This document shows, in pieces, positions 16,301-30,386 of a DNA stretch of 35,378 nucleotides. The stretch comes from Flavobacteriales bacterium. Lineage in GTDB: Bacteria > Bacteroidota > Bacteroidia > Flavobacteriales_F > PHOS-HE28. The first letter of the stretch is position 1. The number at the start of each line of letters is the position of its first letter. A program made the position numbers and the translations under genes. The stretch lies in assembly GCA_017987115.1 (NCBI GenBank), contig JAGNUG010000031.1, forward strand, positions 1 through 35,378, read 5' to 3'. A model generated the notes under the pieces. That model searched no databases. It worked only from the letters and a program-made list of their open reading frames with translations, and had not been told where the DNA came from.

Positions 16301-16766
16301 ATTCTTCGAGGCACAAACATCCCAAAGCGTGGATGGATACGTTTGGGATTTCGGCGATGGAACAGAAGGATACAATAGCGAAGAGATCCATTTTTTCGAA
16401 CCACCGGGACCATACACTGTTTGCCTAAGCACGTATTACTGGAATCAGAATACACAGGACACATGCTGGTCCACTTCCTGCCAAACGGTTGAGCCTTTCG
16501 GTCCGAACGGCATCACCGACCTGAACGCTGAGGATCTATTCAGCATCTATCCGCAACCCGCTACGGATGTCATCACCATCGATGGCGCAACACCCATGAA
16601 AGATGCGACAGTGGAGTTGTTCAGCATGGATGGTCGTCTGGAACACCAAGAACGGATCACGGCACTGCCCCATCAATTGAATATTTCTGAATTAAAACCT
16701 GCGGTCCATCTAATGCAGATCCAGTTGGATGGTGTTCGGTACAATTATCGCATCGTGATCCAATAG
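13353..16766 (+). CDS. Secreted protein with 12 PKD domains and a T9SS sorting domain
   Basis: A large 1137-residue cell-surface protein. A signal peptide ends near residue 19. Twelve PKD beta-sandwich modules of 82-91 residues follow directly, starting near residues 21, 104, 190, 272, 363, 446, 532, 615, 704, 792, 883 and 967. Each has a W-x-FGDGT-like core and a YTVCLT-like strand. Every module begins with Cys and holds further Cys pairs (for example NCVDSTC), so disulfides probably stiffen the rod. The modules fall into classes in the order A B C D A B C E B D C F. A type A sorting domain (1054-1137; YPQPATDVITI) ends the protein. There is no catalytic domain, so adhesin or structural filament is the likeliest role. 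It may be cotranscribed with the next gene, 37 bases on. Confidence 0.93.
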   Translation: MRPLFLFISIALFLTCKAQPCSDVEACMVVNQNNDGSFFFENCSTPTANSQFVWSFGDGTSENGEVVDHYYAQPGSYTVCLTMYWQNCVDSTCTTIVVDGANPCDDLNAEFFYSGGIQGVNFGHPNVELDWSYLWNFGDGTTGYGPSPYHTYPGPGTYETCLTVWTWDPVAQDTCFADHCELIVIDGSPCDLFQACYVPTQTGATSVFFNNCTPNEPGTVFTWLFGDGTTSNDIAPTHTYANAGNYEVCLVAEWQNCFDSTCTYIAVGSDPCANLSANFSASTTPSGTIFSNGTTGTGFQSIWSWTFGDGDTSDDPQPIHTYAEPGIYYTCLTVNSQYEYEGQVITCVDSVCIDVTIEELGACDDVEACILANDYGNGTFLFENCSTPIANSQFEWDFGDGTSDNGMIADHIYSQAGSYTVCLTMYWQNCVDSTCTNIIVEGANPCDDLNAEFFYSGGTQGVNFGHPNVELDWTYLWNFGDGTTGYGPSPYHTYPGPGTYETCLTVWTWDPIAQDTCFADHCELIVIGGGPCEFLQACHIPTQTSATSVFFNNCTPNEPGTVFTWLFGDGSTSNDIAPTHTYANEGAYEVCLVAEWQNCFDSTCTYITVGQGNPCDDFAVYLAWNQGGNDTYFFNATSNQPNVTYTWIFDDGTPDATGQNVQHIFTDPGTYWVCVVGMYFNEVSQETCIVEDCFSLVVGGGSPCDELDANFSYSGGASGMNFANAVINSTWTYFWDFGDGTTDYGPNPYHTYPAPGTYQTCLTVWTWDPVNQDTCFADHCETVIASGIGDPCENLNAEFVSTTTPNGTFFSNATTGAGLQTTWFWEFGDGSTSNDAQPNHMYTAGTYTVCLTATSIYEQPGGNLVTCSDSTCHTLVIQGGDPCDFLIACFEPTQTSSNVVFFNNCTPNEQGTVYTWFFGDGTESNDASPVHTFPAGAGAYSVCLIAEWQNCVDSICTTITVGNTMGCDSFATWFDVTYGNVHVFFEAQTSQSVDGYVWDFGDGTEGYNSEEIHFFEPPGPYTVCLSTYYWNQNTQDTCWSTSCQTVEPFGPNGITDLNAEDLFSIYPQPATDVITIDGATPMKDATVELFSMDGRLEHQERITALPHQLNISELKPAVHLMQIQLDGVRYNYRIVIQ
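13413..14165 (+). repeat. PKD A-B-C block, copy 1
   Basis: Encodes PKD modules 1-3. It aligns in frame with 14439-15194 at a constant offset of 1026 bases (342 codons). Conservation is highest in module B, where I count roughly nine of ten bases identical and most changes silent. Confidence 0.85.
14439..15194 (+). repeat. PKD A-B-C block, copy 2
   Basis: Encodes PKD modules 5-7, the partner of 13413-14165. Module 4 (class D) separates the two blocks, so the duplicated unit was probably A-B-C-D or included its edge. Single B, D and C modules recur later (modules 9, 10, 11) in more diverged form. Confidence 0.85.
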
Positions 16767-16803: not shown

Positions 16804-17910
16804 ATGTACCGTGCAGGTTTGGGGCTTTTACTTTTCTGGTGTTCGGTGTTCAGCGTGGCAGCCACGGAATACATCGTTCCGGTCGGGGTTGATGTGGGCG
16901 AATACTTCGAAACACTACCGGCTGATGTGACCTACATCTCGTTCTCTGCGAGTTCATCTTACAGAAGTTCTGGAGATATCGTATTGCCAGATGTACAGCT
17001 CTGTGTGGTCGATGGCAAAGGAGCATCACTTGCGTTAGGTCCGAATTCGAACGGCTTCACCCGGCAGGTCCTGAACCAGAATATGGTTGACAAAAAATTG
17101 ACCTCCCGTTATGTGATCCGCGACTTTTCTGAGATCAAGGGCGGTAAGAAAGCAATCGATCTGCAAGCAACATTGGGCAGCATCGTGAGCAATTGCCGGC
17201 TCCATGACCAGACCGAGATCGCAGTTGATCTGCGCTTTTGTTTAATGGCCCGGATCGAGAATGTATTGGTCACCAACCCGCGTGCGGAAGGGATCGTAAT
17301 TCGCACTGGCGATTGGCCCGGTGCTTCCGCAACAAACAGTCAGAGCAACAGCACGGTACTTTCTCAATGCCGCGTGTACTGTAGCAACACCACTACGAAC
17401 GCGTACAGCGTGCTTAATTGTGGAGGTGTTCGAATGGTCGATTGCATCTCAGAGGGCGGAGAAGCCGATCGTGACCTATTACTTTCTGCAGAAATGCACA
17501 ATGATCAAGAGCGGTTCGGGTCCAACCCAACGATGAAGTCCTTCACCATAGAGAACTTTCATGTGGAACACAATGTGCGCAAGGAGAGCATACTCGTAAA
17601 TATGACTCCGCAAGCATCCGTAAACCTGATCAATATTTATTGGAACAGTGCCTCAACAGCGCCAGTGATCCGCTACATGCGCGGCCAATTGAACCTATCC
17701 GACATTGGTTGGTGGACCGATAACCACCGCATCGTTTCACGCGTTAGTGCACCGCGCATCAATGCAACACGCTGCCACAGCAAATTAAGACTTGATGTTA
17801 AAGCCTCGGCCACTGCAACGCGATCCGGTAGTTTCGAGCTGGTCGATCCGATAGGGGAGAAAAAAACACTGGATACCCGCTACATCCGGGTCTCAGCACC
17901 ATCCCGCTGA
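16804..17910 (+). CDS. Secreted protein, predicted parallel beta-helix
   Basis: A 368-residue protein with a signal peptide (cleavage near AAT-EY, residue 21). The body is made of short beta-strand turns typical of right-handed parallel beta-helices: TSRYVIRDFSEIKGG, GSIVSNCRLHDQTEIAV, ARIENVLVTNPRAEGIVI, STVLSQCRVYCSNT, SVLNCGGVRMVDCIS, KSFTIENFHVEHN, ASVNLINIYWNSAS. Such folds occur in polysaccharide lyases and binding proteins, but I see no recognisable catalytic residue set. There is no T9SS sorting domain, so it is probably periplasmic or released. It follows the 12-PKD gene by 37 bases and ends before a bidirectional terminator shared with ssb copy 1. Function unknown. Confidence 0.7.
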   Translation: MYRAGLGLLLFWCSVFSVAATEYIVPVGVDVGEYFETLPADVTYISFSASSSYRSSGDIVLPDVQLCVVDGKGASLALGPNSNGFTRQVLNQNMVDKKLTSRYVIRDFSEIKGGKKAIDLQATLGSIVSNCRLHDQTEIAVDLRFCLMARIENVLVTNPRAEGIVIRTGDWPGASATNSQSNSTVLSQCRVYCSNTTTNAYSVLNCGGVRMVDCISEGGEADRDLLLSAEMHNDQERFGSNPTMKSFTIENFHVEHNVRKESILVNMTPQASVNLINIYWNSASTAPVIRYMRGQLNLSDIGWWTDNHRIVSRVSAPRINATRCHSKLRLDVKASATATRSGSFELVDPIGEKKTLDTRYIRVSAPSR

Positions 17911-17946
17911 CATGTTCCGACCATAGTACTGAAAACGGAGTGTTGA

Positions 17947-17984
17947 AACAAGAACGGCCCCAGTTTCCTGGAGCCGTTCTCGTT
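17947..17984. terminator. Bidirectional hairpin after the beta-helix gene and ssb copy 1
   Basis: AACAAGAACGGCCCC pairs imperfectly with GAGCCGTTCTCGTT around a short internal CCAG/CTGG stem. It lies between the two convergent stop codons and matches the perfect hairpin at 24876-24913. Confidence 0.7.
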
Positions 17985-17999
17985 CAAGTTGGTTATGTG

Positions 18000-18350
18000 T
18001 TACGCCGCAACATCAGCACGTTGTGGAAGCAATTGGAAATCGCTCAGCACCACTTCGGTGATGTAGCGCTTGCTACCGTCTTTGGTTTCGTAGCTGCGGT
18101 GTACCAAACGCCCTTCCAATGCAACGGGTGAACCTTTACGAAGAATGCGGGCCACGGCATCCGCAGTACTTCCCCATGCAACAACCGTGTGCCATTGTGT
18201 ATCGGTAACGCGTTCACCTTGTGCATTGCGGTAGCTATCGTTCGTGGCCAATGAGAGGCGAGCCACCTTACGGCCTTCTGCTACTTCGCGTACTTCAGGG
18301 TCAAAACCAAGGTTGCCAATAAGGTGTACTCTGTTCTTTAGCGTGTTCAT
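18000..18350 (-). CDS. ssb: Short single-stranded DNA-binding protein, copy 1
   Basis: A 116-residue OB-fold protein that binds single-stranded DNA. It opens with LKNRVHLIGNLGFDPEVRE and has VARLSLATNDSYRN, DTQWHTVVAWG (the SSB signature Trp region), GSPVALEGRLVHRSYE and RYITEVVLSDFQLLP. It stops right after the OB fold, ending QRADVAA. The acidic DDDIPF-like tip that recruits repair and replication partners in normal SSBs is absent, so it is probably an accessory SSB. Nearly identical to the gene at 24931-25281. Start: ATG at 18350. Confidence 0.95.
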   Translation of the reverse strand: MNTLKNRVHLIGNLGFDPEVREVAEGRKVARLSLATNDSYRNAQGERVTDTQWHTVVAWGSTADAVARILRKGSPVALEGRLVHRSYETKDGSKRYITEVVLSDFQLLPQRADVAA

Positions 18351-18450
18351 GGGAATTGGGTTTTAGTGTTTTGTTTTCGTTACACCGAGGGATTGTTCCC
18401 AACGGCGATGCAAACATTCACCGGTGCCCATTCCTTAATCGGTTAATACC

Positions 18451-18497
18451 CGTATGTAGTCGTTCATAGCCGTTTGCTGTCGGTTGCTGTACGGTAG
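18451..18497 (-). promoter_or_regulatory. Helically phased CGT repeats upstream of ssb copy 1
   Basis: On the plus strand CG-started units recur at 18451, 18461, 18471, 18481 and 18492 (CGTAT, CGTTC, CGTTT, CGGTT, CGGTA); read toward ssb each unit ends in an AAACG-like block. The array begins 101 bases upstream of the ATG. One 10-bp turn between units suggests a protein binding one face of DNA. Confidence 0.5.
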
Positions 18498-18660
18498 TTT
18501 TTGGTACTGATGACACTGGTTTAATTCGATCCTACCTTACATTTCATCGGGCGCCCCAACTATCCGTAGGTTGATCGATATAGGGCGTTGTTAACCAATT
18601 CCGCTGGCAAACACTCTCGTCTCCCTCTACCACCCAAAGCAAAACCCAACCCAAGCAACC

Positions 18661-18668
18661 TACTTTTG
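18661..18668 (+). promoter_or_regulatory. Minus-7 box for the SBBP-repeat gene
   Basis: TACTTTTG fully matches TAnnTTTG and lies 37 bases before the ATG at 18706. No minus-33 TTG is found at the usual spacing. Confidence 0.5.
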
Positions 18669-18705
18669 GCGGGCGCTTTTCAGAGCCACGTTCGCTAACG
18701 TCCCC

Positions 18706-21528
18706 ATGAAACCGATCTTTCTAGCACTACTCGCCTGTAGCTCCTTTGCAGGCTTTTCGCAGACCACAACAACACCGCAACGGACGAATGAAGTTCGGTT
18801 CGAAGAAAACCGGGGTCAAGTAAAGGATCAGAACTGGCAGCCACGGGAAGATGTTTTGTTCTCCGGTTCAACGCAGGGGATCAACTTCCACATTCGTGCG
18901 AATGGGATCAGCTACCAATTGTCGCGTTTGGAACAAAAGCCATTGGTCGCTGATGCTTCTCAACAACCGCATGGTATTGCGAGCAAAAAGCATGACGAAT
19001 TACCGGCCGCTACTACGATCACAAGCCACCGGATCGACATTGATTGGGTCGCATCTGAACGTGATCCTGCGATCAAACCCAATGGTGAACTTCCCAGCTA
19101 CACCAATTATTACAACATACCCGAGCACACGGCACCTGCGTTACTGGTAAAGTCATACAGTGCTGTAAACTTTAGTAACATATGGCCGGGTGTAGACCTG
19201 GAATACCACGCGCGCAATGGCGTTCTGGAAAGCGATTGGACGGTACACGACCCAGCGGATCATACGAAGATAAAGTTCACGGTCAGTGGTGCTGATCTGC
19301 GTGTAGATGAAGCGGGTTACTTGGTCCTTAACACACCATTGGGCAGCATCCGTGAAGGACAACTGATCGCTACTCAAAACGGCGAAGCGCGCAACGTGCA
19401 ATGGGTCGTATTCGGGAATACCGTCTCCATCAGCGCAACAGGGTTAGATGCGAACGTGCCTTTGATCATTGATCCGCCGACCCGACTTTGGGGTACGTAC
19501 TTAGGAGGCACGGGCGATGAGTTTCCTTGGTCATCAGAAAATGATGGAACCGGTGGTCTTTACGTTGCAGGGGTAACATCTTCCAGCGCGAACATCGCCA
19601 CAACAGGCGCTCACCAAGTAACGTATGCGGGACAATACGACGCATTCCTTAGCCGCTTCGGAGCCAACGGCATGCCGATGTGGAGCACCTACTACGGCGG
19701 CAATGAAGATGATTTCGGTCGCGACTGTTCGGTATCGCCAATGAACGGAGATGTATACCTCTCTGGGGCAACTCTGTCGGGGTTCGGTATTGCTACTCCG
19801 GGTGCTCACCAAGAAAACCCGTGTGGTACGTTGGATGCGTTCTTGGTAAAGTTCAACGCCACTGGGCTTCGCTCGTGGGGCACTTACTACTGTGGTACCG
19901 ACATAGAAGAAGGCAATGCCTGCTCCGTAGATCAGTTCGGGAATGTCTACATGGCCGGTTGGACCCTCTCGGTAGATTCAATTGCCACACCGGGATCCTT
20001 TCAACCTGTGCACGCAAGCCCGAATGCAATGGATGCGTTCTTGGTAAAATTCGATACTTCCGGCACGCGCCAGTGGGGCACTTATGTTGGCGGCTTGAAC
20101 GAAGACCGGGCCTACGACTGCAAGGTCGATGGACTAGGATCGGTCTATCTCTCCGGCAGGACCCAGGGGCTTCCCGTAGGCGCTACAACGGGGGGCCACC
20201 AGCCTTTTTTTGGTGGGTTCGTTGATGCGTTCTTGCAGAAGTACGACAGCAATGGAAACCTGACCTGGGGCACCTACTATGGGGGTCCCGACCTGGATAC
20301 CTGGGGCTTTTGCGCCGTAGATGATGACCATGTGTATTTGGCAGGCACCACTTTATCGGATACCGGGATCGCAACGCCCGGTGCGTACCAGACCATTGCT
20401 ACATCTCCCGGGAATTTCGACGATGATGCGTTCCTGATCCAATTCGAACACACTGGAGAGCGCAACTGGGGCACCTACCTCGGGGGTATGGCAGGCGATG
20501 CCTTGAACGGAGTGGCAACGGACGGCAATGGAAGTGTTCTCATTACAGGATGGTCCCGTTCTACTAGTGGCATGGCAAGCAGCGGTAGTTATGATACCAT
20601 CCATGAAGGTGTGGAAGACGGCTTTCTAGCCAAGTTCACCAGCACGGGAGCACTTCACTGGAGTACTTACTATGGAGGCCCGGGAAATGACGTAGGCAAA
20701 GGTTGCGTTGCGATGGGCGGTGATGTTGTTTACATGATCGGCTACACCTATTCAAGTACACAGATCGCATCTCCTGGCGCGCACGATACCACTTTTGATG
20801 GCGGTCAGGGTGATGGCTTCATCATAAAGTTCGATGGCTGCAACCGCGACCCGATCGACCTATTACCGAACAGTGCCGCCAACTGCGGTCTTGATAGCGT
20901 ATTGCTTACAGTAAACGATGGTTTTGAATGCAGATGGAATCCTTCAGAGGGACTTTCCGAAAGTTTCGGCAATTCCGTAATTGCCACACCAAGTGTATCA
21001 ACCACCTTCTACGCACGGCATATCGACGCCAATGGTTGCGCTTCTGTGGACAGTGTATTGATCACCGTAACCAACATCGACACAACGGTCATTGTATCCG
21101 GAGCAATGCTAACAACGGCGCAGCAAGGCGCAACCTACCAGTGGTTCAATTGCGATAGTTTGATGGCGCTCCCAGGTGAAACCAATGCGGTCTATGACGT
21201 AACGATCAACGGCTCTTACGCTGTGGCGCTACAACTGAACGGATGCACAGATACCAGTGCGTGTGTACTGATCACGAATGCTGGTTTGATCGAGAATGCA
21301 GCAGCCAATTTGTATAGCATCGCTCCAAACCCGACCACAGGTGCACTCACCGTTTATGCCCCATCAGTACACGACTACCGCGTTCAACTGTTCGACGTAA
21401 CCGGCAGCCTTGTTTATTCCAACCGTTTCGTAACCGACCGCCCAACCTTTTCCATAGAGCACCTACCCGCTGGTGTGTATTGGTTGCGGATAAATGGGGA
21501 GCGTGGTTTGAAGGTGGTTAAGATGTGA
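18706..21528 (+). CDS. SBBP-repeat beta-propeller protein with T9SS sorting domain
   Basis: A secreted protein of 940 residues. The signal peptide ends near residue 19 (GFSQ). Residues about 28-255 match the N-terminal domain common in Bacteroidota SBBP proteins (RFEENRGQVKDQNW, INFHIRANGISYQL, YSAVNFSNIWPGVDLEY). Seven or eight SBBP repeats follow from about 261 to 711, each like WGTYYGG...GNVYMAGWT...IATPGAHQ...DAFLVKF, expected to close a beta-propeller. About 715-860 is an Ig-like region with paired Cys. The last 75 residues form a type A sorting domain (IAPNPTTGALTVYAP, then GVYWLRINGE). Probably exposed on the cell surface; ligand unknown. It lies between the two ssb direct repeats. Confidence 0.92.
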   Translation: MKPIFLALLACSSFAGFSQTTTTPQRTNEVRFEENRGQVKDQNWQPREDVLFSGSTQGINFHIRANGISYQLSRLEQKPLVADASQQPHGIASKKHDELPAATTITSHRIDIDWVASERDPAIKPNGELPSYTNYYNIPEHTAPALLVKSYSAVNFSNIWPGVDLEYHARNGVLESDWTVHDPADHTKIKFTVSGADLRVDEAGYLVLNTPLGSIREGQLIATQNGEARNVQWVVFGNTVSISATGLDANVPLIIDPPTRLWGTYLGGTGDEFPWSSENDGTGGLYVAGVTSSSANIATTGAHQVTYAGQYDAFLSRFGANGMPMWSTYYGGNEDDFGRDCSVSPMNGDVYLSGATLSGFGIATPGAHQENPCGTLDAFLVKFNATGLRSWGTYYCGTDIEEGNACSVDQFGNVYMAGWTLSVDSIATPGSFQPVHASPNAMDAFLVKFDTSGTRQWGTYVGGLNEDRAYDCKVDGLGSVYLSGRTQGLPVGATTGGHQPFFGGFVDAFLQKYDSNGNLTWGTYYGGPDLDTWGFCAVDDDHVYLAGTTLSDTGIATPGAYQTIATSPGNFDDDAFLIQFEHTGERNWGTYLGGMAGDALNGVATDGNGSVLITGWSRSTSGMASSGSYDTIHEGVEDGFLAKFTSTGALHWSTYYGGPGNDVGKGCVAMGGDVVYMIGYTYSSTQIASPGAHDTTFDGGQGDGFIIKFDGCNRDPIDLLPNSAANCGLDSVLLTVNDGFECRWNPSEGLSESFGNSVIATPSVSTTFYARHIDANGCASVDSVLITVTNIDTTVIVSGAMLTTAQQGATYQWFNCDSLMALPGETNAVYDVTINGSYAVALQLNGCTDTSACVLITNAGLIENAAANLYSIAPNPTTGALTVYAPSVHDYRVQLFDVTGSLVYSNRFVTDRPTFSIEHLPAGVYWLRINGERGLKVVKM

Positions 21529-21652
21529 TAATGGGGCAAGTCAAGTGTCCAACTGCAAGTATCAACTTCAGTATCAATTGGCTATTTTCGCTCTGTTGCG
21601 CATTCTTATTCCGCAAAACAAGCGCCGATCGTGACGACAAGATTCAACACCA

Positions 21653-22618
21653 ATGACAACGATCTCAACAAGGCGACATCCGATTAAATTTTATACTCTG
21701 TTGATCGTTAGCGTCCTGGTCTTATGTGTAATGGCGACCGGTTTATTGATCAAAAGCATAGACACTCTGCAAAAGGAGCAAATTGAAACGAAAGCCTACT
21801 TCTTTTCCTTTTTCTGCCTATTGATTTACTGCTTTGCGTTCGCATCGGTATATTTCTATTGGAGGAATTCTCCCCATGTTTCTATCAACGACCAGACAAT
21901 AAAAATTGGCAATCAGGTTTATTCTCTGAATGACATAAAGGGCATTGCGCTAACAGGCAAAGTGCCCTTCCCTTATTTTGTCAACTTTCCAATGGAGGGT
22001 ATGGCTCTGCTCTTAAATAATGGATCTGAACGATTTCTATACGATGATATGTATTCGAACCTTCACCAAGTGAAGTCAATGCTAGAACAAGTTATTGTGA
22101 ACGAGCAGGAATACAACTCCGTCTTCTTGGATCATAAAGGCCGGAATGGTGTTCGTTTGGAACTTGAAGAAACCTTTAAAGGCATTCAACTTATTAACTT
22201 TAGGGGAATATTGCTTTGGGGGGCAATCAGCTTTTTGGCAATTAAGCTATTCGTAAGTGCGCAAATTCCTTCCGTGGCGGGATTGATCATTATAGGTCTG
22301 ATGGCAGCGTTGTTTTTCGTGTCGTTTTCGTGGGAGATGCATTATTTCGGTCTTTCAAAAGACTACCTGATCGTTAGAAACCATAATTTTATTTGGAAGT
22401 CAATCGTCTATGGCCTGTCCGAAATAAAAGAAGTCGTTTTTGAGACCGATAGGAACAGGCCGAATTGCATGAGAGTGATAACAAAAGACTTTAGGAATAA
22501 ACTATATCCTGCAGGTACATTACGAGATAAAACCTGGCATAGGCTTAAGAGTCGTTTAGAAGCAAAGGGCGTGACGGTGAGGAATGAATGTATAGCGGAA
22601 ACGGTGATTGATAAGTAA
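21653..22618 (+). CDS. Membrane protein with two PH-like halves
   Basis: A 321-residue protein I cannot assign to a named family. It has four transmembrane helices in two pairs (about 12-33 and 46-68; about 187-205 and 208-229). Each pair is followed by a soluble beta-rich segment that looks alike: first NDQTIKIGNQVYSLNDIKGI then MYSNLHQVKSMLEQV, second SKDYLIVRNHNFIWKSIVYG, LSEIKEVVF then TWHRLKSRLEAKGV. This resembles bacterial PH-like domains attached to membrane hairpins. The gene is visibly richer in A and T than its neighbours, and its flanks of 124 and 210 bases hold nothing recognisable, which suggests transfer. Start: ATG at 21653. Confidence 0.7.
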   Translation: MTTISTRRHPIKFYTLLIVSVLVLCVMATGLLIKSIDTLQKEQIETKAYFFSFFCLLIYCFAFASVYFYWRNSPHVSINDQTIKIGNQVYSLNDIKGIALTGKVPFPYFVNFPMEGMALLLNNGSERFLYDDMYSNLHQVKSMLEQVIVNEQEYNSVFLDHKGRNGVRLELEETFKGIQLINFRGILLWGAISFLAIKLFVSAQIPSVAGLIIIGLMAALFFVSFSWEMHYFGLSKDYLIVRNHNFIWKSIVYGLSEIKEVVFETDRNRPNCMRVITKDFRNKLYPAGTLRDKTWHRLKSRLEAKGVTVRNECIAETVIDK

Positions 22619-22828
22619 CGGCTTTCGACTTCTATTTACCTTCCGCCAAGCCCAGCACCATTGGCTAGCGAACCCACCCAGACAAGCACTGACGCTTCAC
22701 CTACAATACCCCATTGGCTTAAATTCCTTCATCCCAAAACTTGTGAAGTCGCTGTTAATGAATGCCTCTGCAAATACGGCTGACCTAGATTCGTGAGCAT
22801 ACTTGTTTAGCACAAATAGTCTCTCCGC

Positions 22829-24844
22829 ATGAACCTCTCCACCTTCCAATCCGCTGCTCTTTTCACCCTGGCTTTTCTATGGGCATTGCCCGGTTACAGC
22901 CAAGTAAAACGCGCAAGCAACGCGCAATTCATCGCGGAGTTGGATAAGAAAGTACCCGCGTATTTGGAAGAATTCATTGTACCCGGAGCCGCTATTGCGA
23001 TCATCCAAAATGGTAAGGTGATCCTGCAAAAAGGCTATGGGATTGCTAATGTGGAGAAGCAGCTCAAGGTGACCGACAGAACGGGTTTCAACATTGCTTC
23101 CATCTCAAAAACGATTTCGGCTTGGGGTGTAATGAAATTGGTAGAACAAGGCAAGTTGGAACTGGATGCACCTGCTGATACATACTTGACGCGATGGCAT
23201 CTGCCGGGATCCGAATTCGATGCGAACGGGGTTACCATCCGTAGGTTATTGAGTCACACTGCTGGGCTATCGTTGCACGGTTATCCGGGTTGGGCGCCAA
23301 CGGACACATTGCCCACTATCGAGGAATCTCTATCGGGCAAGACCAATGGTGCCGGCGAGGTGAAACTGATCATGGAACCGGGAACACGGTGGAAGTATTC
23401 CGGAGGTGGTTACACCATGCTGCAATTGATCATTGAAGGGGTAACTGGTAAGTCGTTCGCGGCGTACATGCGATCGGCCATTCTGGATCCGCTTGGCATG
23501 ACGAATAGCGGTTTCGATATCAACGAAACGATCATGAACGCCTCTTCGTTGGAACACAATAGTTATGGTGAAGTGATCCCGTTCGAACTCTTTACCGCAC
23601 AAGCTGCAGCGGGTTTTCATACCACCATTGAGGACCTCGCGAAATTCGCCTTGGCCAGTTTGAAAGTAACCGGAAAGCAAAGCTCAGTCTTGCAAGCAAG
23701 CACCATCGATAGCATGATGACCGCCGCCCCGGCGTCCGATGGGCGCTATGGTTTGGGATATAGTATTGAAGAGATCGGCGGGAGCAAAACTGTACTGGTT
23801 GGTCACGGTGGTGCCAATGATGGGTGGCATAGCATCCTGCAACTGGACCCACGAACACGCGATGGTTTCATCATGATCACCAACGGCGAAACGGGCCATG
23901 CGGTCTACATGCAGGCATGCGCTGATTGGCTCCAATGGAACTACGGCATAAACGAAGAGCGGATGCGTCGGAAGCCGATCATTCCACTTATGGTAAGGAA
24001 GTATAAAGAGGGTGGGATCGACGCTACGGTATCGGCGTATCAAGAAGCCAAAGCCACGGCTCCAAAAGCATACAATTTCAATGAGGCGGATGTTAACCTC
24101 TTTGCCTATCAGCTCATGTGGGACGATAAACTCGATGATGCTCTGGCGATCTTCAAACTCAATGTGGAAGAAAACCCGTACGCCTTTAATCCATTTGACA
24201 GCTATGGGGAAGCGTTGCTCGTTAAGGGAGATACGGCAGGTGCAATAAAGAATTATACGCGATCAATGGATCTGAATCCACTAAATGACAATGGTCGCGC
24301 AGTACTTGAAAAACTAGGTGTTCACGTTCCTCCGTATGTAGAACCGATCAGCATCCTAGACGCCCCTGATGGATGGGCCAGCGAGATCATTCCGTTCCCC
24401 ATAAACTTCGCACCGACCATTGACCTGAAGGGATTTGAAGAATTGAGCTTCGCACCGAATTGGCGCGATTCCACCAGCCAGAATTTGTGGACGCTCATGT
24501 ATGTCTGGTACGTAGAACCCAGCGGCGACCTCACCGATGAACAACTGGCGCACTACTTGGAAGCATACTATGATGGGCTGATGGATGTGGAATACGCTAC
24601 CGATCATGGCGCTGAAAAAACACGCTGCACGATCAAGAACACACCGGAAGGAAAACGCGCAGAGATCCGCGTCTTCGACAACTTCGTCAAGAAAAAGATG
24701 ATGCTCTTGAACATGAAGATCGAACAAGGACATTGCGCAGAGACCGACAAGCAACTGATCCAATTCCGGATATCACCCAAGCGGTTTGATGATCAGATCT
24801 GGGATAAGTTTGATGCTGTGAGGGTGAAGGTGAAGTGTGGGTAG
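22829..24844 (+). CDS. Secreted serine hydrolase (class C beta-lactamase fold) with TPR and extra C-terminal domain
   Basis: A 671-residue protein. The signal peptide ends near GYSQ (25). The beta-lactamase/DD-peptidase domain, about 30-375, has the nucleophile motif SISK (Ser91, Lys94), the YSG motif (Tyr190) and HGG (His326) in place of KTG, as in class C-like esterases and peptidases. Residues about 410-480 hold TPR-like helices (LDDALAIFKLNVEENPYAF, GDTAGAIKNYTRSMDLNP). From about 500 to the end is a domain I do not recognise, with two late Cys residues. These proteins act outside the cytoplasm on peptides or esters; the substrate is unknown. It ends 86 bases from the convergent ssb copy 2. 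Confidence 0.9.
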   Translation: MNLSTFQSAALFTLAFLWALPGYSQVKRASNAQFIAELDKKVPAYLEEFIVPGAAIAIIQNGKVILQKGYGIANVEKQLKVTDRTGFNIASISKTISAWGVMKLVEQGKLELDAPADTYLTRWHLPGSEFDANGVTIRRLLSHTAGLSLHGYPGWAPTDTLPTIEESLSGKTNGAGEVKLIMEPGTRWKYSGGGYTMLQLIIEGVTGKSFAAYMRSAILDPLGMTNSGFDINETIMNASSLEHNSYGEVIPFELFTAQAAAGFHTTIEDLAKFALASLKVTGKQSSVLQASTIDSMMTAAPASDGRYGLGYSIEEIGGSKTVLVGHGGANDGWHSILQLDPRTRDGFIMITNGETGHAVYMQACADWLQWNYGINEERMRRKPIIPLMVRKYKEGGIDATVSAYQEAKATAPKAYNFNEADVNLFAYQLMWDDKLDDALAIFKLNVEENPYAFNPFDSYGEALLVKGDTAGAIKNYTRSMDLNPLNDNGRAVLEKLGVHVPPYVEPISILDAPDGWASEIIPFPINFAPTIDLKGFEELSFAPNWRDSTSQNLWTLMYVWYVEPSGDLTDEQLAHYLEAYYDGLMDVEYATDHGAEKTRCTIKNTPEGKRAEIRVFDNFVKKKMMLLNMKIEQGHCAETDKQLIQFRISPKRFDDQIWDKFDAVRVKVKCG

Positions 24845-24875
24845 CGACGGCTGTTTACAACATGGTTGTTCCCAA

Positions 24876-24913
24876 AACAAGAACGGCCCCAGTTTCCCGG
24901 GGCCGTTCTTGTT
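24876..24913. terminator. Bidirectional terminator after the serine hydrolase and ssb copy 2
   Basis: A perfect 15-bp stem, AACAAGAACGGCCCC with GGGGCCGTTCTTGTT, around an 8-base loop. It lies between convergent stops and is T-rich on the exit side in both directions. Confidence 0.85.
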
Positions 24914-24930
24914 GAGATAAATGTTATGTC

Positions 24931-25281
24931 CTAAGCGGCAACCTCTGAACGCTGTGGAAGCAATTGAAAATCGCTCAGTACCACTTCAGTGATGTAGCGC
25001 TTGCTACCGTCTTTGGTTTCGTAGCTGCGGTGTACCAAACGCCCTTCCAATGCAACGGGTGAACCTTTACGAAGAATGCGGGCCACGGCATCCGCAGTAC
25101 TTCCCCATGCAACCACGGTGTGCCATTGTGTGTCAGTAACGCGCTCACCCTGTGCATTGCGGTAGCTGTCGTTCGTGGCCAATGAGAGGCGAGCCACCTT
25201 ACGACCTTCTGCTACTTCGCGTACTTCAGGGTCAAATCCAAGGTTACCGATCAAGTGTACTCTGTTCTTTAGCGTGTTCAT
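24931..25281 (-). CDS. ssb: Short single-stranded DNA-binding protein, copy 2
   Basis: A 116-residue protein identical to copy 1 except near the C-terminus, QRSEVAA instead of QRADVAA. Most other base differences are silent, so the pair arose by recent duplication or is kept alike by gene conversion. As in copy 1, the protein ends after the OB fold with no acidic tip. It shares the terminator at 24876-24913 with the convergent serine hydrolase gene. Start: ATG at 25281. Confidence 0.95.
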   Translation of the reverse strand: MNTLKNRVHLIGNLGFDPEVREVAEGRKVARLSLATNDSYRNAQGERVTDTQWHTVVAWGSTADAVARILRKGSPVALEGRLVHRSYETKDGSKRYITEVVLSDFQLLPQRSEVAA

Positions 25282-25633
25282 GGGAATTGGGTTTTAGTGT
25301 TTTGTTTTCGTTACACCGAGGGACTATCCCAACGGCGATGCAAACATTCACCGGTGCGCATTCCTTAATCGGTTAATACCCGTATGTAGTCGTTCATAGC
25401 CGTGTGCTGTCGGTTGCTTTGCGGGAATTGGAATGGTGTCGATGCTGTGATCTGATCGATTGCTCGTTACTTACAATTGTTAGGGCGAAGGGCATTTCCG
25501 CTGAATTGATTTTCTGGCATGTTTTATAGACACTAGTTATCATTACGTCCTCTCGTATTGCTCTCGCCTCCACTCCGTCCCGATCCCCGTATCTTAGCAT
25601 AACCCACCATAGGCAGCATTTGCACCAGCATCT
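25282..25633. other. Divergent intergenic region of ssb copy 2 and the ECF sigma gene
   Basis: No gene is visible. Bases up to 25418 repeat the ssb copy 1 upstream region (partial minus-7 box at 25341-25348, phased repeats from 25381). The unique part contains TATCTTAG near 25592, a two-thirds match to the minus-7 consensus facing the sigma gene. Confidence 0.55.
25381..25425 (-). promoter_or_regulatory. Helically phased CGT repeats upstream of ssb copy 2
   Basis: CG-started units at 25381, 25391, 25401, 25411 and 25422, beginning 100 bases upstream of the ATG. The third unit differs from copy 1 by one base. Confidence 0.5.
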
Positions 25634-26227
25634 GTGTCTAGAAGGTTGAAAGGCCATTCACTTTTGCCAGAATTGACCGAACCGGAACTGATCCAAGGTT
25701 GCTTGGACGGAGACCGTCGCTGCCAGGAAGACCTGTATGCGCGGTACTCACGGCGTATGTACGCAGTGTGCTTGCGCTATGCCCGTCATGAGCTGGAGGC
25801 GCAGGACCTTATGCAGGAAGGATTCATCCGGGTATTCGAAAAACTTAGCAGTTTCCGATTGCAGGGGTCGCTGGAGGGGTGGGTGCGCAGGATCATGGTA
25901 CACACATCGATAAACCACTATCGCAAAAAAGCGTTCCAGAACGAGAAATTCGGTCTGGAGCATTTGCCAGAGGGCCAAGTAGACTCATTGGCCGTGGATC
26001 GCCTAGGCGAACGGGAGCTCATGGCGTTGATAGCGGCCTTACCCGATGGATATCGACACGTTTTCAATCTCTACGCGATAGAGGGATACGATCATAAAGA
26101 GATCGCGGAAATGCTGGGATGTGGGGAGAGCACATCGCGCAGCCAATTAAGTAAGGCCCGGAAGTATCTCCAGGACCGAATAGAACAAAAAGAAAATTAC
26201 ACCCATGCGGGAAATGCATCCCATTGA
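25634..26227 (+). CDS. ECF-type RNA polymerase sigma factor
   Basis: A 197-residue sigma-70 family protein of the extracytoplasmic-function type, with only regions 2 and 4. Region 2 (about 30-105) has DLYARYSRRMYAVCLRYA, AQDLMQEGFIRVFEKL and the DNA-melting WVRRIMVHTSINHYRKK. Region 4 (about 130-185) has LIAALPDGYRHVFNLYAIEG, then the helix-turn-helix HKEIAEMLGCGESTSRSQLSKARKYL in two parts. The start is uncertain: GTG at 25634 is used, and an in-frame TTG follows shortly. Its 3' end overlaps the next gene by 14-23 bases, so the two should be translated together. By context it is controlled by that membrane protein. Confidence 0.93.
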   Translation: MSRRLKGHSLLPELTEPELIQGCLDGDRRCQEDLYARYSRRMYAVCLRYARHELEAQDLMQEGFIRVFEKLSSFRLQGSLEGWVRRIMVHTSINHYRKKAFQNEKFGLEHLPEGQVDSLAVDRLGERELMALIAALPDGYRHVFNLYAIEGYDHKEIAEMLGCGESTSRSQLSKARKYLQDRIEQKENYTHAGNASH

Positions 26228-27827
26228 CGAACGATTCAAGGCGCTGTACGACGCAGAAGCCACGCCTCCGGAAGAAGTGCGCGCTGCCATCGGGCACCGT
26301 TTAGGCTGGAACAAAAGCGTAGGGAACGGGGTTTCGTTCCCGTCTACGTTTTTGTTGCTGGTAGGTGTGGCCGGAGCAGCATTGGCCTGGTATCATTGGA
26401 GCGATACCACGACCACACGACAAGAATTTGCCGCTGTGCAGGAACAGCAAATGCCCATCACGGCTGAACCGGCCGCCTCGTCCTCTGAAAGTGCGACGGA
26501 TCAGGCTACTTTTACTGCAGAAGCAGGGGTTGTTGAACAGGCAACGTTGGTACCTGAAAACCAAGAAGGGTCGATCACAAAGAACACTGAAGCGGTAAAC
26601 ACTGCAAAAAGCAACACAGCATCTCGACCGACCGCTGTCTCCGCCAATACGAAAAACCCAGCGTTGGCAACGCCTGGTCATAAGCAAAGCACGGTATCAG
26701 CAGGGTCTGGCGAGCAGGCAAGGTCTGGACCGGTTGTTCAGAAAAAAGAAGGTTCAACCCTGGCCTCCAAGAAACAAGGAACGGATCGCGGAAGTATTGC
26801 ATCTGAAGGAGTTGAACCGGGGTCACCGGCGATCAACGATGGGCAATCACGCAACACTGGAACTATTGCCGACAATTCCGATGATGAAAAAGCAAGTAAT
26901 GCGGTAGCAAAGGCCAACGAACTAGATGAACCGGCATTTACTGTAGGACATTCTGGCACTGAAGCCTGGGTCGGTCCTGCTGTGAACATTAACCGATTGG
27001 ATACGCGCTTTGCATTGATCGATACGGAAGCGTCGGCAAAACAGCCGTTCACCGCACAACGTGTCGCCGATTATGTAGTTCCCCATGGAAATTGGTGGGT
27101 GAGCATTTATGGCGGATTGAGTTCCGTCAAAGGCAAATGGTCGGGTGCGGATGCAGAGGCACTTGATCGATCGGAAGACTGGAAAAGCGGTTGGCAAGCT
27201 GGTGCATTGGTAGGTAGAACTTGGCGTTCCGGCTTTGGCGTTGGCATAGGAGCCGGCGTTGCTCGAATTCACAGCACATTCTCGGACGAACGTTCTTCTG
27301 TTTCAGGAGAAGCCGCCGACCTGGATACGGCATGGACCACGTCGAACTATCCTGGGACAGAAATTGTGATATCCACCTGGTCCATCGACACCACCTTTGC
27401 GCCGATCGTTGGACCACAGGAACGTAGGTCGGCCAATAATCAGTACACGGCAATTCAGGTCCCGCTTTCACTGTGGTGGCATAAGGACATTAGGCGTTGG
27501 AAAGTTGGTGCAACGGCAGGTGTCATGGGCTGGATCCCGATGAAAAGACAGGGCTTGACATTAGTACGACCAACCACGGATGCTGAACCTGCACCAACTG
27601 CACTTTCAAGCCCGGAAACCGAACCACGGTACGGAATGCAGTTACATGGAAATGCAGGTTTAAGCTTGGGCTTTATGTTTTGTGAGCAACTGACCCTCCT
27701 TGCCGAACCAATGATCAGTGCGCCGTTGTACAGAGGGAATGAAAACACGTCCCTCTCGCTTTCACGGCCCACTATACAATTAAGGCTTCAATATGATATC
27801 CATTCGCACATACAACGTTCAAAATAA
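26205..27827 (+). CDS. Predicted dual-membrane anti-sigma factor with outer-membrane barrel
   Basis: A 540-residue protein with an unusual layout. Residues 1-43 are a short cytoplasmic segment (IDERFKALYDAEATPPEEVRAA in two parts around PPEEV) like the N-termini of Bacteroidota anti-sigma-like proteins. One helix at about 46-63 (FLLLVGVAGAALAWYHW) should lie in the inner membrane. About 65-285 is low-complexity Ser/Thr/Glu/Lys-rich linker without predicted folds, long enough to cross the periplasm. About 290-540 is beta-rich with aromatic strand ends (WWVSIYGGLSSVKGKW, GFGVGIGAGVARIHS, LRLQYDIHSH), like a PorT-type outer-membrane barrel. This matches the dual-membrane-spanning (Dma) anti-sigma factors reported from Bacteroides. 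Start ATG 26205 or 26214. Confidence 0.75.
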   Translation: MREMHPIDERFKALYDAEATPPEEVRAAIGHRLGWNKSVGNGVSFPSTFLLLVGVAGAALAWYHWSDTTTTRQEFAAVQEQQMPITAEPAASSSESATDQATFTAEAGVVEQATLVPENQEGSITKNTEAVNTAKSNTASRPTAVSANTKNPALATPGHKQSTVSAGSGEQARSGPVVQKKEGSTLASKKQGTDRGSIASEGVEPGSPAINDGQSRNTGTIADNSDDEKASNAVAKANELDEPAFTVGHSGTEAWVGPAVNINRLDTRFALIDTEASAKQPFTAQRVADYVVPHGNWWVSIYGGLSSVKGKWSGADAEALDRSEDWKSGWQAGALVGRTWRSGFGVGIGAGVARIHSTFSDERSSVSGEAADLDTAWTTSNYPGTEIVISTWSIDTTFAPIVGPQERRSANNQYTAIQVPLSLWWHKDIRRWKVGATAGVMGWIPMKRQGLTLVRPTTDAEPAPTALSSPETEPRYGMQLHGNAGLSLGFMFCEQLTLLAEPMISAPLYRGNENTSLSLSRPTIQLRLQYDIHSHIQRSK

Positions 27828-28929
27828 GAGCCTTACGGCTGTTCTATCGCTATTGCTTCAAGGCGGCATAGTGAGTGCGCAGCCGTATTGTGACATTCTG
27901 CTTCGACCAGCGTTCGATGTTTCGTTCAACGGCAATGTGATCACGTGCTCGAACCTATCGACACCGCTTACTGCGGGAACTACGGAGCTGTGGAGTTATG
28001 GTGATGCAACCGTTTCCGACAGTTATGCTTATCATGAATACACCACTCTTGGCGTTTACCCTGTATGTCTAACACTGAGTACACAGGATGGCGCTTGCAG
28101 CTCCACCTATTGCAGGGATGTTGTTGTTCCGGAGAATGATTGTAACGGCTCTTGGAATTCAACCTTTTCCAGTAGCCAAACAGGTACCAACACATTGACC
28201 CTTACGGATATTTCCACTTCCGGCACCCCTGATTCCCGCCAATGGGGCTTTGGAGACCTTTCGGCGGTCTCCACCGATGAATCTCCTTCGCATACCTGGC
28301 TGCTACCTGGTTCACACCTCGTACACCTTACGCGTAGGCTGGGTGAGTGCGTTGTTACGGACGCACATTGGGTTACCGTAGATGGCAACGCAAGCACATG
28401 TGGGCAAGATCTGTTCGTGAATTTTACCAGTGAGGAAATGGGAGGTCAAGTGGTTTTTCAATCCGAGTTGACTTCTTTGGCATCCATTCCTGTGATCGCG
28501 TTGTGGAGCTACGGAGATGGTCTGTCCGATACCACATTCGCGAGCACACATACATACGCTGAGCCCGGTGAATATCAAACTTGCTTGTTCGTTGGTGCCA
28601 CCAACCTCAGTTCGTTCGACACCTGTTTTGCGTTCGTTTGCCGGACCATTACCGTAGGGGCTTCGCTAGTGGGGGTCACCGAAACCGAACAACATTCACT
28701 GAATGTTTGGCCCGTGCCGTTCCAGAATGAACTGCACCTGTCCGCACCTTGGCTTTCCGGTACGTGCATTGCCCGACTAACCGACGCAACGGGCAGGGAG
28801 ATCCACCGTTCGCAACAACATGTCACGGAACGCATGGACCTTAACCTGCCCGATCTGCGCAGCGGGGCCTATGTGTTGGAGGTCAACTCAGTCCTGGGAA
28901 GCAAGCGTACCCTTCTTATTCGTGATTGA
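27793..28929 (+). CDS. PKD-domain surface protein with T9SS sorting domain, third gene of the sigma operon
   Basis: A 378-residue secreted protein. A signal peptide ends near VSAQ (30). Three PKD-like modules follow at about 33-113 (TELWSYGDATVS), 116-198 (SRQWGFGDLSAV) and 203-294 (IALWSYGDGLSD), with Cys at module starts and ends as in the 12-PKD protein. A type A sorting domain spans about 303-378 (VWPVPFQNELHLS, then GAYVLEVNSV). The ATG at 27793 lies 35 bases inside the barrel gene, so translation is coupled. This puts a T9SS cargo under the same operon as the sigma/anti-sigma pair. It overlaps the 3' end of the opposing ssb3 gene by 42 bases. Confidence 0.88.
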   Translation: MISIRTYNVQNKSLTAVLSLLLQGGIVSAQPYCDILLRPAFDVSFNGNVITCSNLSTPLTAGTTELWSYGDATVSDSYAYHEYTTLGVYPVCLTLSTQDGACSSTYCRDVVVPENDCNGSWNSTFSSSQTGTNTLTLTDISTSGTPDSRQWGFGDLSAVSTDESPSHTWLLPGSHLVHLTRRLGECVVTDAHWVTVDGNASTCGQDLFVNFTSEEMGGQVVFQSELTSLASIPVIALWSYGDGLSDTTFASTHTYAEPGEYQTCLFVGATNLSSFDTCFAFVCRTITVGASLVGVTETEQHSLNVWPVPFQNELHLSAPWLSGTCIARLTDATGREIHRSQQHVTERMDLNLPDLRSGAYVLEVNSVLGSKRTLLIRD

Positions 28930-29289
28930 AGCATCGTCGTCCCAACCTTTTCCGGTAGTGCTCGCCAGCAAATGGAATTCACTGAGCGCCACTTCCGTGC
29001 TGTAGCGTTTTTCACCCGAAGCGGTTTCCCAACAGCGGTGGACCAATCGCCCTTCAATGACAAGACCGCTTCCCTTACGGGTCAATTCAGCCAAGCGCTC
29101 GGCTTGTTTGCCCCATGCAGTTATCGGGTGCCACTGGGTATTATCCTTCCACTCACCGTCAGCACCCTTATAGCGTTCGTTCGTTGCCAAGTTGATACGC
29201 ACCATGTGTTGGCCTTTACCCATCTCTTTTAGTTCAGGATCACTGCCTAGGTTACCGATCAGCTGTACTTTGTTCTTCATCGTTGCCAT
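28888..29289 (-). CDS. ssb: Short single-stranded DNA-binding protein, third paralogue
   Basis: A 133-residue SSB, clearly diverged from copies 1 and 2. It shares KNKVQLIGNLGSDPELKEM, INLATNERYK, NTQWHPITAWG, LVIEGRLVHRCWE and RYSTEVALSEFHLL with them. The tail after the OB fold (about 107-133) contains GWDDDASITNKKG and ends ASQD; the DDD is internal, so the usual terminal acidic-hydrophobic tip is missing. The ATG at 29289 (MATMKNKV) lines up with the MNTLKNRV start of the others; ATGs at 29292 and 29280 are alternatives. Its last 42 bases overlap the 3' end of the PKD gene on the opposite strand. Confidence 0.92.
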   Translation of the reverse strand: MATMKNKVQLIGNLGSDPELKEMGKGQHMVRINLATNERYKGADGEWKDNTQWHPITAWGKQAERLAELTRKGSGLVIEGRLVHRCWETASGEKRYSTEVALSEFHLLASTTGKGWDDDASITNKKGTLASQD

Positions 29290-29388
29290 CATTCGTGGTT
29301 TGTTTTAAGACCGGGGGATTTGTTTTCCGATCCGACGGCAAAGCAGGGACCGTTCGATCCAATGATCCGGTCAGTAAGCATTTACAGG

Positions 29389-29425
29389 CGTTTACAACCG
29401 TTTGTTTTACGATTTTGCACGTTTG
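29389..29425 (-). promoter_or_regulatory. Helically phased CGTTT repeats upstream of ssb3
   Basis: Units CGTTTACAAC, CGTTTGTTTTA, CGATTTTGCA and CGTTTGGACT start at 29389, 29399, 29410 and 29420 on the plus strand, beginning 100 bases upstream of the ssb3 ATG. The gene and spacer have diverged from ssb copies 1 and 2, yet the unit, period and distance are kept. Confidence 0.5.
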
Positions 29426-29493
29426 GACTCCATGTGCACAAAGGATCCGCTAAATTGCCGCTGGAGAACCAAAAGCCCTTTCAGCGTTTAACT

Positions 29494-29524
29494 TTGCTTA
29501 CCTTATATCAGAGCAATATTTTTG
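29494..29524 (+). promoter_or_regulatory. Promoter of the universal stress protein gene
   Basis: TTG (29494-29496), 20 bases, TATTTTTG (29517-29524): full match to the Bacteroidota sigma-A consensus. It ends 22 bases before the ATG at 29547. Confidence 0.75.
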
Positions 29525-29546
29525 CGCAACCCCTATCGACCAGAAC

Positions 29547-30386
29547 ATGATCCCTAAGAAGAACAAGATCCTAATTCCAACCGATTTTACACCTGTTTCC
29601 GACGTTGCGCTGAACCATGCGCTTAATCTAGCAAAGCACAATGGCGCTGAGTTGTATTTGTTGCATGTCGTAGACAAGAAGGAAGAGGTCGATATTGCAA
29701 GGGCTAAGCTTGAAAAAGAACAAGCAAAGGCAAAGGCACTCAATGGAGCAATTGCTACCCATAAGGTCGTACGCGTAGGTTCCATTTACAAGGATATCGG
29801 TGATGCAGCAGCAGAGATCAATGCAAACCTGATCGTAATGGGCACCCACGGAATGCGCGGAGTACTTATGTTCACTGGCAGTCGGATCTTAAGGATCATC
29901 ACCTCTTCGGAAGTTCCATTCATCGTAGTTCAGGACCGGGAGATCAAAGAGAGCGGTTATGATTCGATCGTTGTGCCATTGGACCTACACAAAGAGACCC
30001 GCCAAAAATTGACGATCGTGGCTGATATGGCCCGAACTTTCGGAAGCAAGGTACATTTGATCGTACCCAAGGAAGATGATGAATTCCTGCACAAGGAATT
30101 GGCGAATAACATCAAGTTCGCCAACCAGTATTTGGATGAACGTGGCATAGAACACGATGCTACTATTAGCGAAGAGGACAGCACCGATTTCGTAAAGGCC
30201 GTAGTAAAACACGCTTTGGCCGTTGATGCAGATCTGATCACCATCATGAACCTTTCAAAGGGGAACATCTTTGGTGCTCTTGGACTTCCGTACGAACAGG
30301 AGATCCTTACGAACAAGGCGCATATTCCGGTAATGTGCATGAATCCTCGTGAGACCGGTACCAATTCCGGCTGGTCATTCCAATAA
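29547..30386 (+). CDS. Universal stress protein with two UspA domains
   Basis: A 279-residue cytoplasmic stress protein made of two Usp folds in tandem. The first (about 1-140) has KNKILIPTDFTPVSDVALNHA, ELYLLHVVD, and NLIVMGTHGMRGVLMFTGSR, the last being a near-canonical ATP-binding G-x2-G...GS motif. The second (about 147-270) has YDSIVVPLDLHKE and ADLITIMNLSKGN but lacks the glycine motif, so it probably does not bind ATP. Two-domain Usps of this kind are common in Bacteroidota and tied to starvation or stress; the exact ligand and partner are unknown. It is monocistronic, with its own good promoter, and converges with the phosphatase gene 33 bases away. Confidence 0.9.
   Translation: MIPKKNKILIPTDFTPVSDVALNHALNLAKHNGAELYLLHVVDKKEEVDIARAKLEKEQAKAKALNGAIATHKVVRVGSIYKDIGDAAAEINANLIVMGTHGMRGVLMFTGSRILRIITSSEVPFIVVQDREIKESGYDSIVVPLDLHKETRQKLTIVADMARTFGSKVHLIVPKEDDEFLHKELANNIKFANQYLDERGIEHDATISEEDSTDFVKAVVKHALAVDADLITIMNLSKGNIFGALGLPYEQEILTNKAHIPVMCMNPRETGTNSGWSFQ

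Follow-up and report, generated by a model that had tools for sequence, protein, structure and literature searches.

A ladder of ten-base-pair units upstream of accessory ssb genes, and a treble-clef protein associated with it, point to an unrecognised genetic switch in Bacteroidota

Tandem repeats of 10–11 bp are typical of the operators of OmpR/PhoB-type regulators, and the half-sites of known LytTR operators occur in pairs about 21 bp apart. Among single-strand binding proteins (SSBs), gp32 of phage T4 is autoregulated, and SsbB of Bacillus, which has no acidic tail, belongs to a protein type controlled elsewhere by ComK or ComX. The portion of one account that was available describes SsbB as a second, non-essential SSB and such second SSBs as present in most naturally competent bacteria (PMC3527212). 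The Bacteroidota SSBs considered here resemble SsbB of B. subtilis and other competent bacteria in being second, short, tailless SSBs under their own control, but their putative array operator and candidate regulator are unrelated to the control of SsbB. In the open-access literature that we searched we found no description of the array and no named control of accessory SSBs in Bacteroidota, and the accessible part of a Riemerella transposon screen names no ssb (PMC8459023).

The DNA analysed (the window) is a 35,378-nucleotide contig (C131) from the 3.73 Mb, 202-contig assembly of a Flavobacteriales bacterium, whose named relatives are for the most part metagenome assemblies of the same order. 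Four SSB genes were found in this genome, the canonical gene on another contig and three accessory genes in the window (Table 1), and the SSB OB-fold was recognised in the accessory proteins (PF00436, E 3.7e-31 and 1.8e-30). A sequence-only reading of the window had described units one helical turn apart upstream of the three ssb genes, and every one of them was located. In gene orientation the unit approximates YAAACGNY. One further conserved unit on the gene-proximal side, CCGATTA or CCGGATC, had been missed in that first description. The same reading had taken the first two copies for duplicates and ssb3 for a diverged gene, in agreement with the identities given in Table 1. The distal edge of the array is also the end of the duplicated ssb block, and a short inverted repeat was observed at the other end. 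From the ends of the block, it is as if array, ssb and terminator had moved as a cassette. An ECF sigma gene adjoins ssb2; as the neighbours of ssb1 and ssb3 differ, it was set aside as a source of control.

Table 1. Positions of the ssb genes, arrays, promoter boxes and nearby features in the window.
Feature	Position	Strand	Remarks
Large secreted-looking protein	13353-16766		Long near-identical repeats, PKD-like by eye
Duplicated block, copy 1 (ssb1 and array)	17946-18494		92.6% identical to copy 2 over 551 columns
Short inverted repeat	17947-17984		End of duplicated block away from array
Accessory ssb1, 116 aa	18000-18350	-	
-7-like box AATGTTTG of ssb1	18411-18418	-	TTTG 18411-18414, 28 bp below CCG
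Array 1	18440-18497	-	Upstream of ssb1; CGT at 18451, 18461, 18471, CGG at 18481; last unit CCG 18440-18442; R2 match 18407-18491, E 2.6e-16
Duplicated block, copy 2 (ssb2 and array)	24875-25424		Pairs with copy 1
Accessory ssb2, 116 aa	24931-25281	-	98% identical to ssb1
-7-like box AATGTTTG of ssb2	25341-25348	-	TTTG 25341-25344
Array 2	25370-25425	-	Upstream of ssb2; unit series of array 1 repeated, starting at 25381; last unit CCG 25370-25372; R2 match 25337-25419, E 2.7e-15
ECF sigma gene	25634		Adjoins ssb2
Shorter relative of the 13353-16766 repeat protein	27793-28929		
Accessory ssb3, 134 aa	28888-29292	-	54% protein identity to ssb1
-7-like box CTGCTTTG of ssb3	29339-29346	-	TTTG 29339-29342
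Array 3	29368-29425	-	Upstream of ssb3; CGTTT/CGATT at 29389, 29399, 29410, 29420 (steps 10, 11, 10); last unit CCG 29368-29370; R2 match 29336-29414, E 2.6e-13

Shuffled sequence rarely equalled the rhythm of these stretches: in order-1 Markov resamplings of the three intergenic stretches (500 each), the observed lag-10 self-similarity was reached by 0 of 500, 1.2% and 1.4%. When both strands of the window were scored with a weight matrix made from 11 loci, all from outside the genus, the three ssb sites ranked first, second and third, with scores of 41.0, 35.3 and -6.9. The best of 50 resampled windows reached -15.0 and the next window site -12.7, and because of these values the ssb3 site, taken alone, stood only moderately above background with this matrix. 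That next site (21630–21715, plus strand) was discarded, as it overlaps an ORF start and shows no array by eye. A search of the whole genome with the model R2 (see below) up to E 1 returned no arrays besides the three in the window, and a search of positions 17,900–29,700 against Rfam up to E 1 gave no match, on which we rejected an RNA element.

Units were expected upstream of orthologous ssb genes in relatives, and they were found there. In 45 genomes of the genus searched with ssb1, most had at least one accessory ssb besides the canonical gene, often about 4 kb apart, and the motif was present in 69 of 79 distinct upstream stretches, a count from which three too-short stretches (L028 twice, L074) and sequence duplicates had been dropped. 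Seven of the ten stretches without it precede the downstream member of two ssb genes in tandem; of the others, the array lies beyond the scanned stretch in L044 and is degenerate in L025 and L042. Where two ssb genes stand in tandem the second had no array before it, and neither had the canonical ssb of the window's own genome. A sequence-only model, R1, made from 45 arrays (alignment A1, which took 45 of 55 listed), matched 69 sites at E<1e-4 across the 45 genomes, and when coordinates were compared every site proved to lie immediately upstream of an accessory ssb. One R1 match, in G035, had no partner in the ssb1 search, the ssb there being cut by the contig end.

The distance of 100–101 bases from array to ATG, which the sequence-only reading had regarded as common to the three genes, does not hold as a constant. 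At ssb3 the count is 97 from the first ATG and 100 from the second, and in the genus the distance from CCG to ATG runs from 68 to 105, and that from TTTG to ATG from 40 to 77, so ATG distance was rejected as a conserved feature. The fixed distance is that from the CCG of the last unit to a downstream TTTG, which was 28 bp in 67 of 69 genus arrays (29 in two), in 10 of 10 measured loci outside the genus and in 29 of the 29 best loci of the phylum. In the part of the F. johnsoniae study that was available, the sigma-A consensus is TTTG/TANNTTTG, with the -7 element TANNTTTG at -12 to -5 and a -33 element that is itself weak (PMC6847099). The F. psychrophilum promoters agree with the -7 placement, in the accessible part of a paper in which ssb goes unmentioned (PMC9723704). 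Compared with TANNTTTG, the array promoters have TTTG in a fixed position and often AA or CA in the TA part. If TTTG is placed at -8 to -5, the CCG of the last unit comes to lie at about -36 to -34, with the other units further upstream in steps of 10. The absence of a -33 TTG from the three promoters, which had been pointed out earlier, was borne out, and the last array unit sits in its place. A sigma-54 or ECF promoter was rejected by eye on the grounds of spacing.

The array has the appearance of an activator operator because its last unit covers the -33 place, and an activator is our best reading of it, with that unit replacing the -33 element. The same overlap could serve repression, as protein bound there could block the polymerase. 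The array would then be a repressor or autoregulatory site at which SSB itself, or the treble-clef protein introduced below, keeps the promoter shut until single-stranded DNA or another signal appears, for which the autoregulation of T4 gp32 is a precedent. However, the polymerase footprint leaves most of the array uncovered on the upstream side, the missing -33 element and weak -7 box fit activation better, and we know of no double-strand sequence specificity in SSB. We consider repression improbable and infer activation.

Outside the genus, a scan of contigs gave ssb relatives from Aquimarina, Flavobacterium, Tenacibaculum, Pedobacter, Chitinophagaceae and others. The model R2 (alignment A2, 24 of 30 listed stretches) identified the array at E<1e-5 in 12 of 18 non-genus ssb loci, nine of which had been used to build R2 and three of which (L151, L153 and L149) were independent. 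The loci without it were L137–L140, L146 and L150, the last of these cut. Among them, L137, L140 and L146 are mobile-element-like regions that carry a different class of accessory ssb, with no array and adjoining radC-like genes; L146 also has a treble-clef/recombinase pair immediately upstream.

We then have the phylum-wide set of 392 Bacteroidota genomes, each at least 90% complete and the window's own genome included, in which R2 matched 90 genomes at E<=0.01 and 79, again including our own, at E<=1e-3. At the 29 best loci outside the window, ssb was directly downstream in 28 and the remaining locus was cut. The approximate consensus units at phylum level are, in order, TTTACAAACG, NTTACAAACA, NTTACAACCG, AAAGTAAATA, NTTANNAACCG and AATAA; these are non-identical, and the array therefore looks like a composite operator of fixed order. 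The matches away from ssb that we examined (L187, L188, L189, L191 and L195–L211) were mostly weak or due to chance. Nine of them, in other classes, had E 0.004–0.008, and two of these nine (L201 and L204) precede an apparent ribosomal protein gene; the matches before a helicase-like gene (L188, E 0.0035) and a MarR-like gene (L189, E 0.0074) may be either genuine or accidental. The weak matches from the R2 search that returned the window arrays lay in or near unrelated genes. A competence regulon was rejected, as nothing rose above noise besides ssb and recombinase/treble-clef genes.

Short, degenerate units and the duplication of copies 1 and 2 might have suggested chance, or recent copying of a single ssb upstream region. 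The recurrence in genus and phylum, the fixed 28 bp and the first three ranks with the outside matrix speak against this, and we regard it as ruled out for practical purposes. The earlier proposal of an operator of accessory ssb genes under selection held with respect to conservation, to near-restriction to accessory ssb and to a rigid offset, the latter now counted to TTTG. That the array is such an operator is strongly supported by these comparisons.

Some array matches had no ssb beside them and lay between a tyrosine recombinase gene and a divergent gene for a small treble-clef protein, through which this protein of 115–140 aa was found. A profile made from three treble-clef proteins (A3) matched 86 of the same 392 genomes. 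The protein was present in 79 of the 79 genomes with an array and in 7 of the 313 others, leaving 306 with neither (E<=1e-3; plain counts in which kinship is ignored). With the looser array cut-off of E<=0.01, 80 genomes had both, 10 the array only and 6 the protein only. The array-only genomes were G414 and nine of other classes, all at E 0.004–0.008. Among genomes with the protein and no array match, G170 has a weak array before ssb (E 0.0024), and by eye ssb is preceded by units like those of the array in G081, G174, G278, G085 and G089, with R2 also matching those of G081 and G278 in a small search; in G116 the treble-clef match was itself partial. Genomes with both and with neither coexist within three genera (g2, g17, g19) and two families (f3, f11), and joint gain or loss must therefore have recurred. 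Twelve extra ssb genes examined in genomes without the protein had no arrays. Within the genus, 43 of 45 genomes have the protein, and a strict one-to-one link is weakened by G001 and G010, in which it occurs with no accessory ssb or array found.

The two are also physically linked. In the 71 genomes with protein and array on one contig, they lie within 5 kb in 55, divergent in 54 of these, and within 1 kb in 31; in 19 they are divergent within 100 bp, with the array between the genes. In the window's own genome the treble-clef gene is on a different contig (G000:C17:42844-43188, minus strand). Unlinked treble-clef genes have no preceding array, and the protein is therefore not generally autoregulated. 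In two Flavobacterium loci (L145 and L292) the treble-clef gene follows a gene for an acetyltransferase-like protein of about 510 aa that is divergent from ssb, and from this gene order the array may serve the acetyltransferase-like operon too.

Second treble-clef copies beside tyrosine recombinases have in some cases an array and no ssb, and it is therefore the array, not ssb, to which the protein is tied. When 14 further treble-clef genes were examined in context, ten had an integrase-like gene in divergent orientation beside them; nine of these integrase-like genes were confirmed as Phage_integrase, and the tenth (L306) repeats L305. The same pair was found on both of the two Bacteroidota plasmids examined, out of five with a match. 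Divergent tyrosine recombinase/treble-clef pairs were seen at L305–L309, L311, L312, L314, L315, L317, L195, L197, L198, L371 and L372, on chromosomes and plasmids and often with phased repeats between the genes; L305 and L306 are two identical copies in one genome, and the L197 recombinase is integron-integrase/XerA-like by NCBIfam. The rhythm in the recombinase intergenics was not uniform, as fewer than 5% of resamplings reached the observed self-similarity at lag 11 in 4 of 10 stretches and at lag 10 in 2 of 10. On three viral contigs (L375, L377 and L376, with arrays at 1435, 436 and 180), rows of TACAAACG units are flanked by inverted ends TTATCCG...CGGATAA, and a similar row precedes an apparent replication operon in L374. 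The viral rows may be promoters that phages have taken from their hosts, or else iterons.

From this company one could read the array as a recombination or replication site, attachment-like or made of iterons, of mobile elements with a tyrosine recombinase, which would be why it lies near ssb. Arrays that adjoin recombinase genes, the inverted ends on viral contigs, the duplicated block that stops at the array and a weak fold likeness of the treble-clef protein to the iteron binders RctB and RepE are all in keeping with this. At ssb, however, the fixed distance of 28 bp to TTTG is the geometry of a promoter, and in the genus the ssb arrays are mostly without a nearby recombinase and keep their synteny. 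A mobile-element site is, in our estimation, very improbable.

The treble-clef protein itself was modelled from nine sequences (pLDDT 89) with a zinc-finger start, a helix at residues 23–58 and a beta-rich end. With the whole model as query, Foldseek gave no match at E<=0.001. Modelled alone, the C-terminal part reached a best pLDDT of 91, with four of five models poor, and its top matches were mostly winged-helix domains, all with Z under 5 (maximum 4.8). RctB (Z 4.7, rmsd 4.0 over 74) and RepE (Z 2.8–2.9) bind rows of repeats with a winged-helix domain, but there is no replication origin at the ssb arrays and Z scores of this size also occur between unrelated folds. The N-terminal part resembles YacG (Z 3.8, rmsd 5.0 over 44). 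No Pfam or NCBIfam entry named the protein above cut-off. The N-terminal 35 residues of nine of nine members match DUF2116 (PF09889, a probable treble clef) below cut-off (20.4 bits for member 1 vs the curated 26.8), but the Pfam model does not extend over the C-terminal two thirds. DUF2116 is also the name under which one plasmid relative is annotated, and we did not find this family in the open literature searched. In PHROGs the zinc-finger part alone was matched, and weakly, and no relatives were found in the phage collection. The protein is probably DNA-binding.

On this evidence, the treble-clef protein is our best candidate for the array binder, and we lean towards it. We hold with similar, somewhat better than even, confidence that its binding to the array activates the tailless SSBs. 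The five to six units of about 10 bp would present one face of the helix, with the last unit (CCG with an A/T-rich end) at about -36 to -34 replacing the -33 element and the rest reaching up to about -90. The regulator, predicted to start with a treble-clef zinc finger, continue in a long helix and end in a winged-helix-like domain, would bind side by side on the units and aid RNA polymerase at a weak -7 box, so that a short SSB without the partner-binding tail would be switched on, possibly in response to some signal. In the window's own genome, the regulator would be encoded off the window and act in trans.

It is less likely, although it merits consideration, that another regulator, for example of the LytTR/AlgR or OmpR/PhoB type, acts on the activator operator and that the treble-clef protein, inherited together with the accessory SSB as its partner, acts on DNA or SSB rather than at the promoter. 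The treble-clef protein and accessory ssb are tightly linked too, and the reversed unit CGTTTRT resembles LytTR/AlgR half-sites, part of which it fits. The array, however, steps by 10 bp and not by about 21: lag 10, not 21, was found at the window sites, and the phylum consensus steps by 10. Tandem 10–11-bp repeats would suit OmpR/PhoB-type regulators, and the boxes of PhoB, OmpR and SARP proteins are likewise head-to-tail units, spaced by roughly a helical turn, that adjoin or overlap the -35/-33 position, but the array has five to six non-identical units in fixed order at 28 bp from TTTG. Arrays beside treble-clef and recombinase genes without ssb also argue against another regulator, no linked response regulator came to notice in the surroundings that were read, and we consider this reading unlikely.

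The predicted targets of the treble-clef protein are short SSBs, and the acidic C-terminal tip is absent in 103 of 105 of those downstream of arrays (an approximate scan, quoted for the array class alone, as the no-array class includes accessory ssb genes with a start called too far upstream). By analogy with SsbB, this is a hint, but nothing beyond a hint, of a role in DNA uptake or repair; the physiological link to uptake or damage that had been offered with the first description is a guess.

Together, the array ladder and the treble-clef protein associated with it point to an unrecognised genetic switch. An operator, a target gene and a candidate regulator are in hand as a named protein, a precise predicted binding site and a readable target, which makes the conditions that need a second SSB (uptake, damage, mobile DNA) directly testable. 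More tentatively, there may be a Bacteroidota module in which a treble-clef/winged-helix family reads 10–11-bp ladders and controls tailless SSBs and tyrosine recombinases, perhaps also phage genes, on chromosomes and plasmids, tying the handling of single-stranded DNA to DNA acquisition or damage. If this were true, the module would fill the niche held elsewhere by ComK/ComX or LexA.
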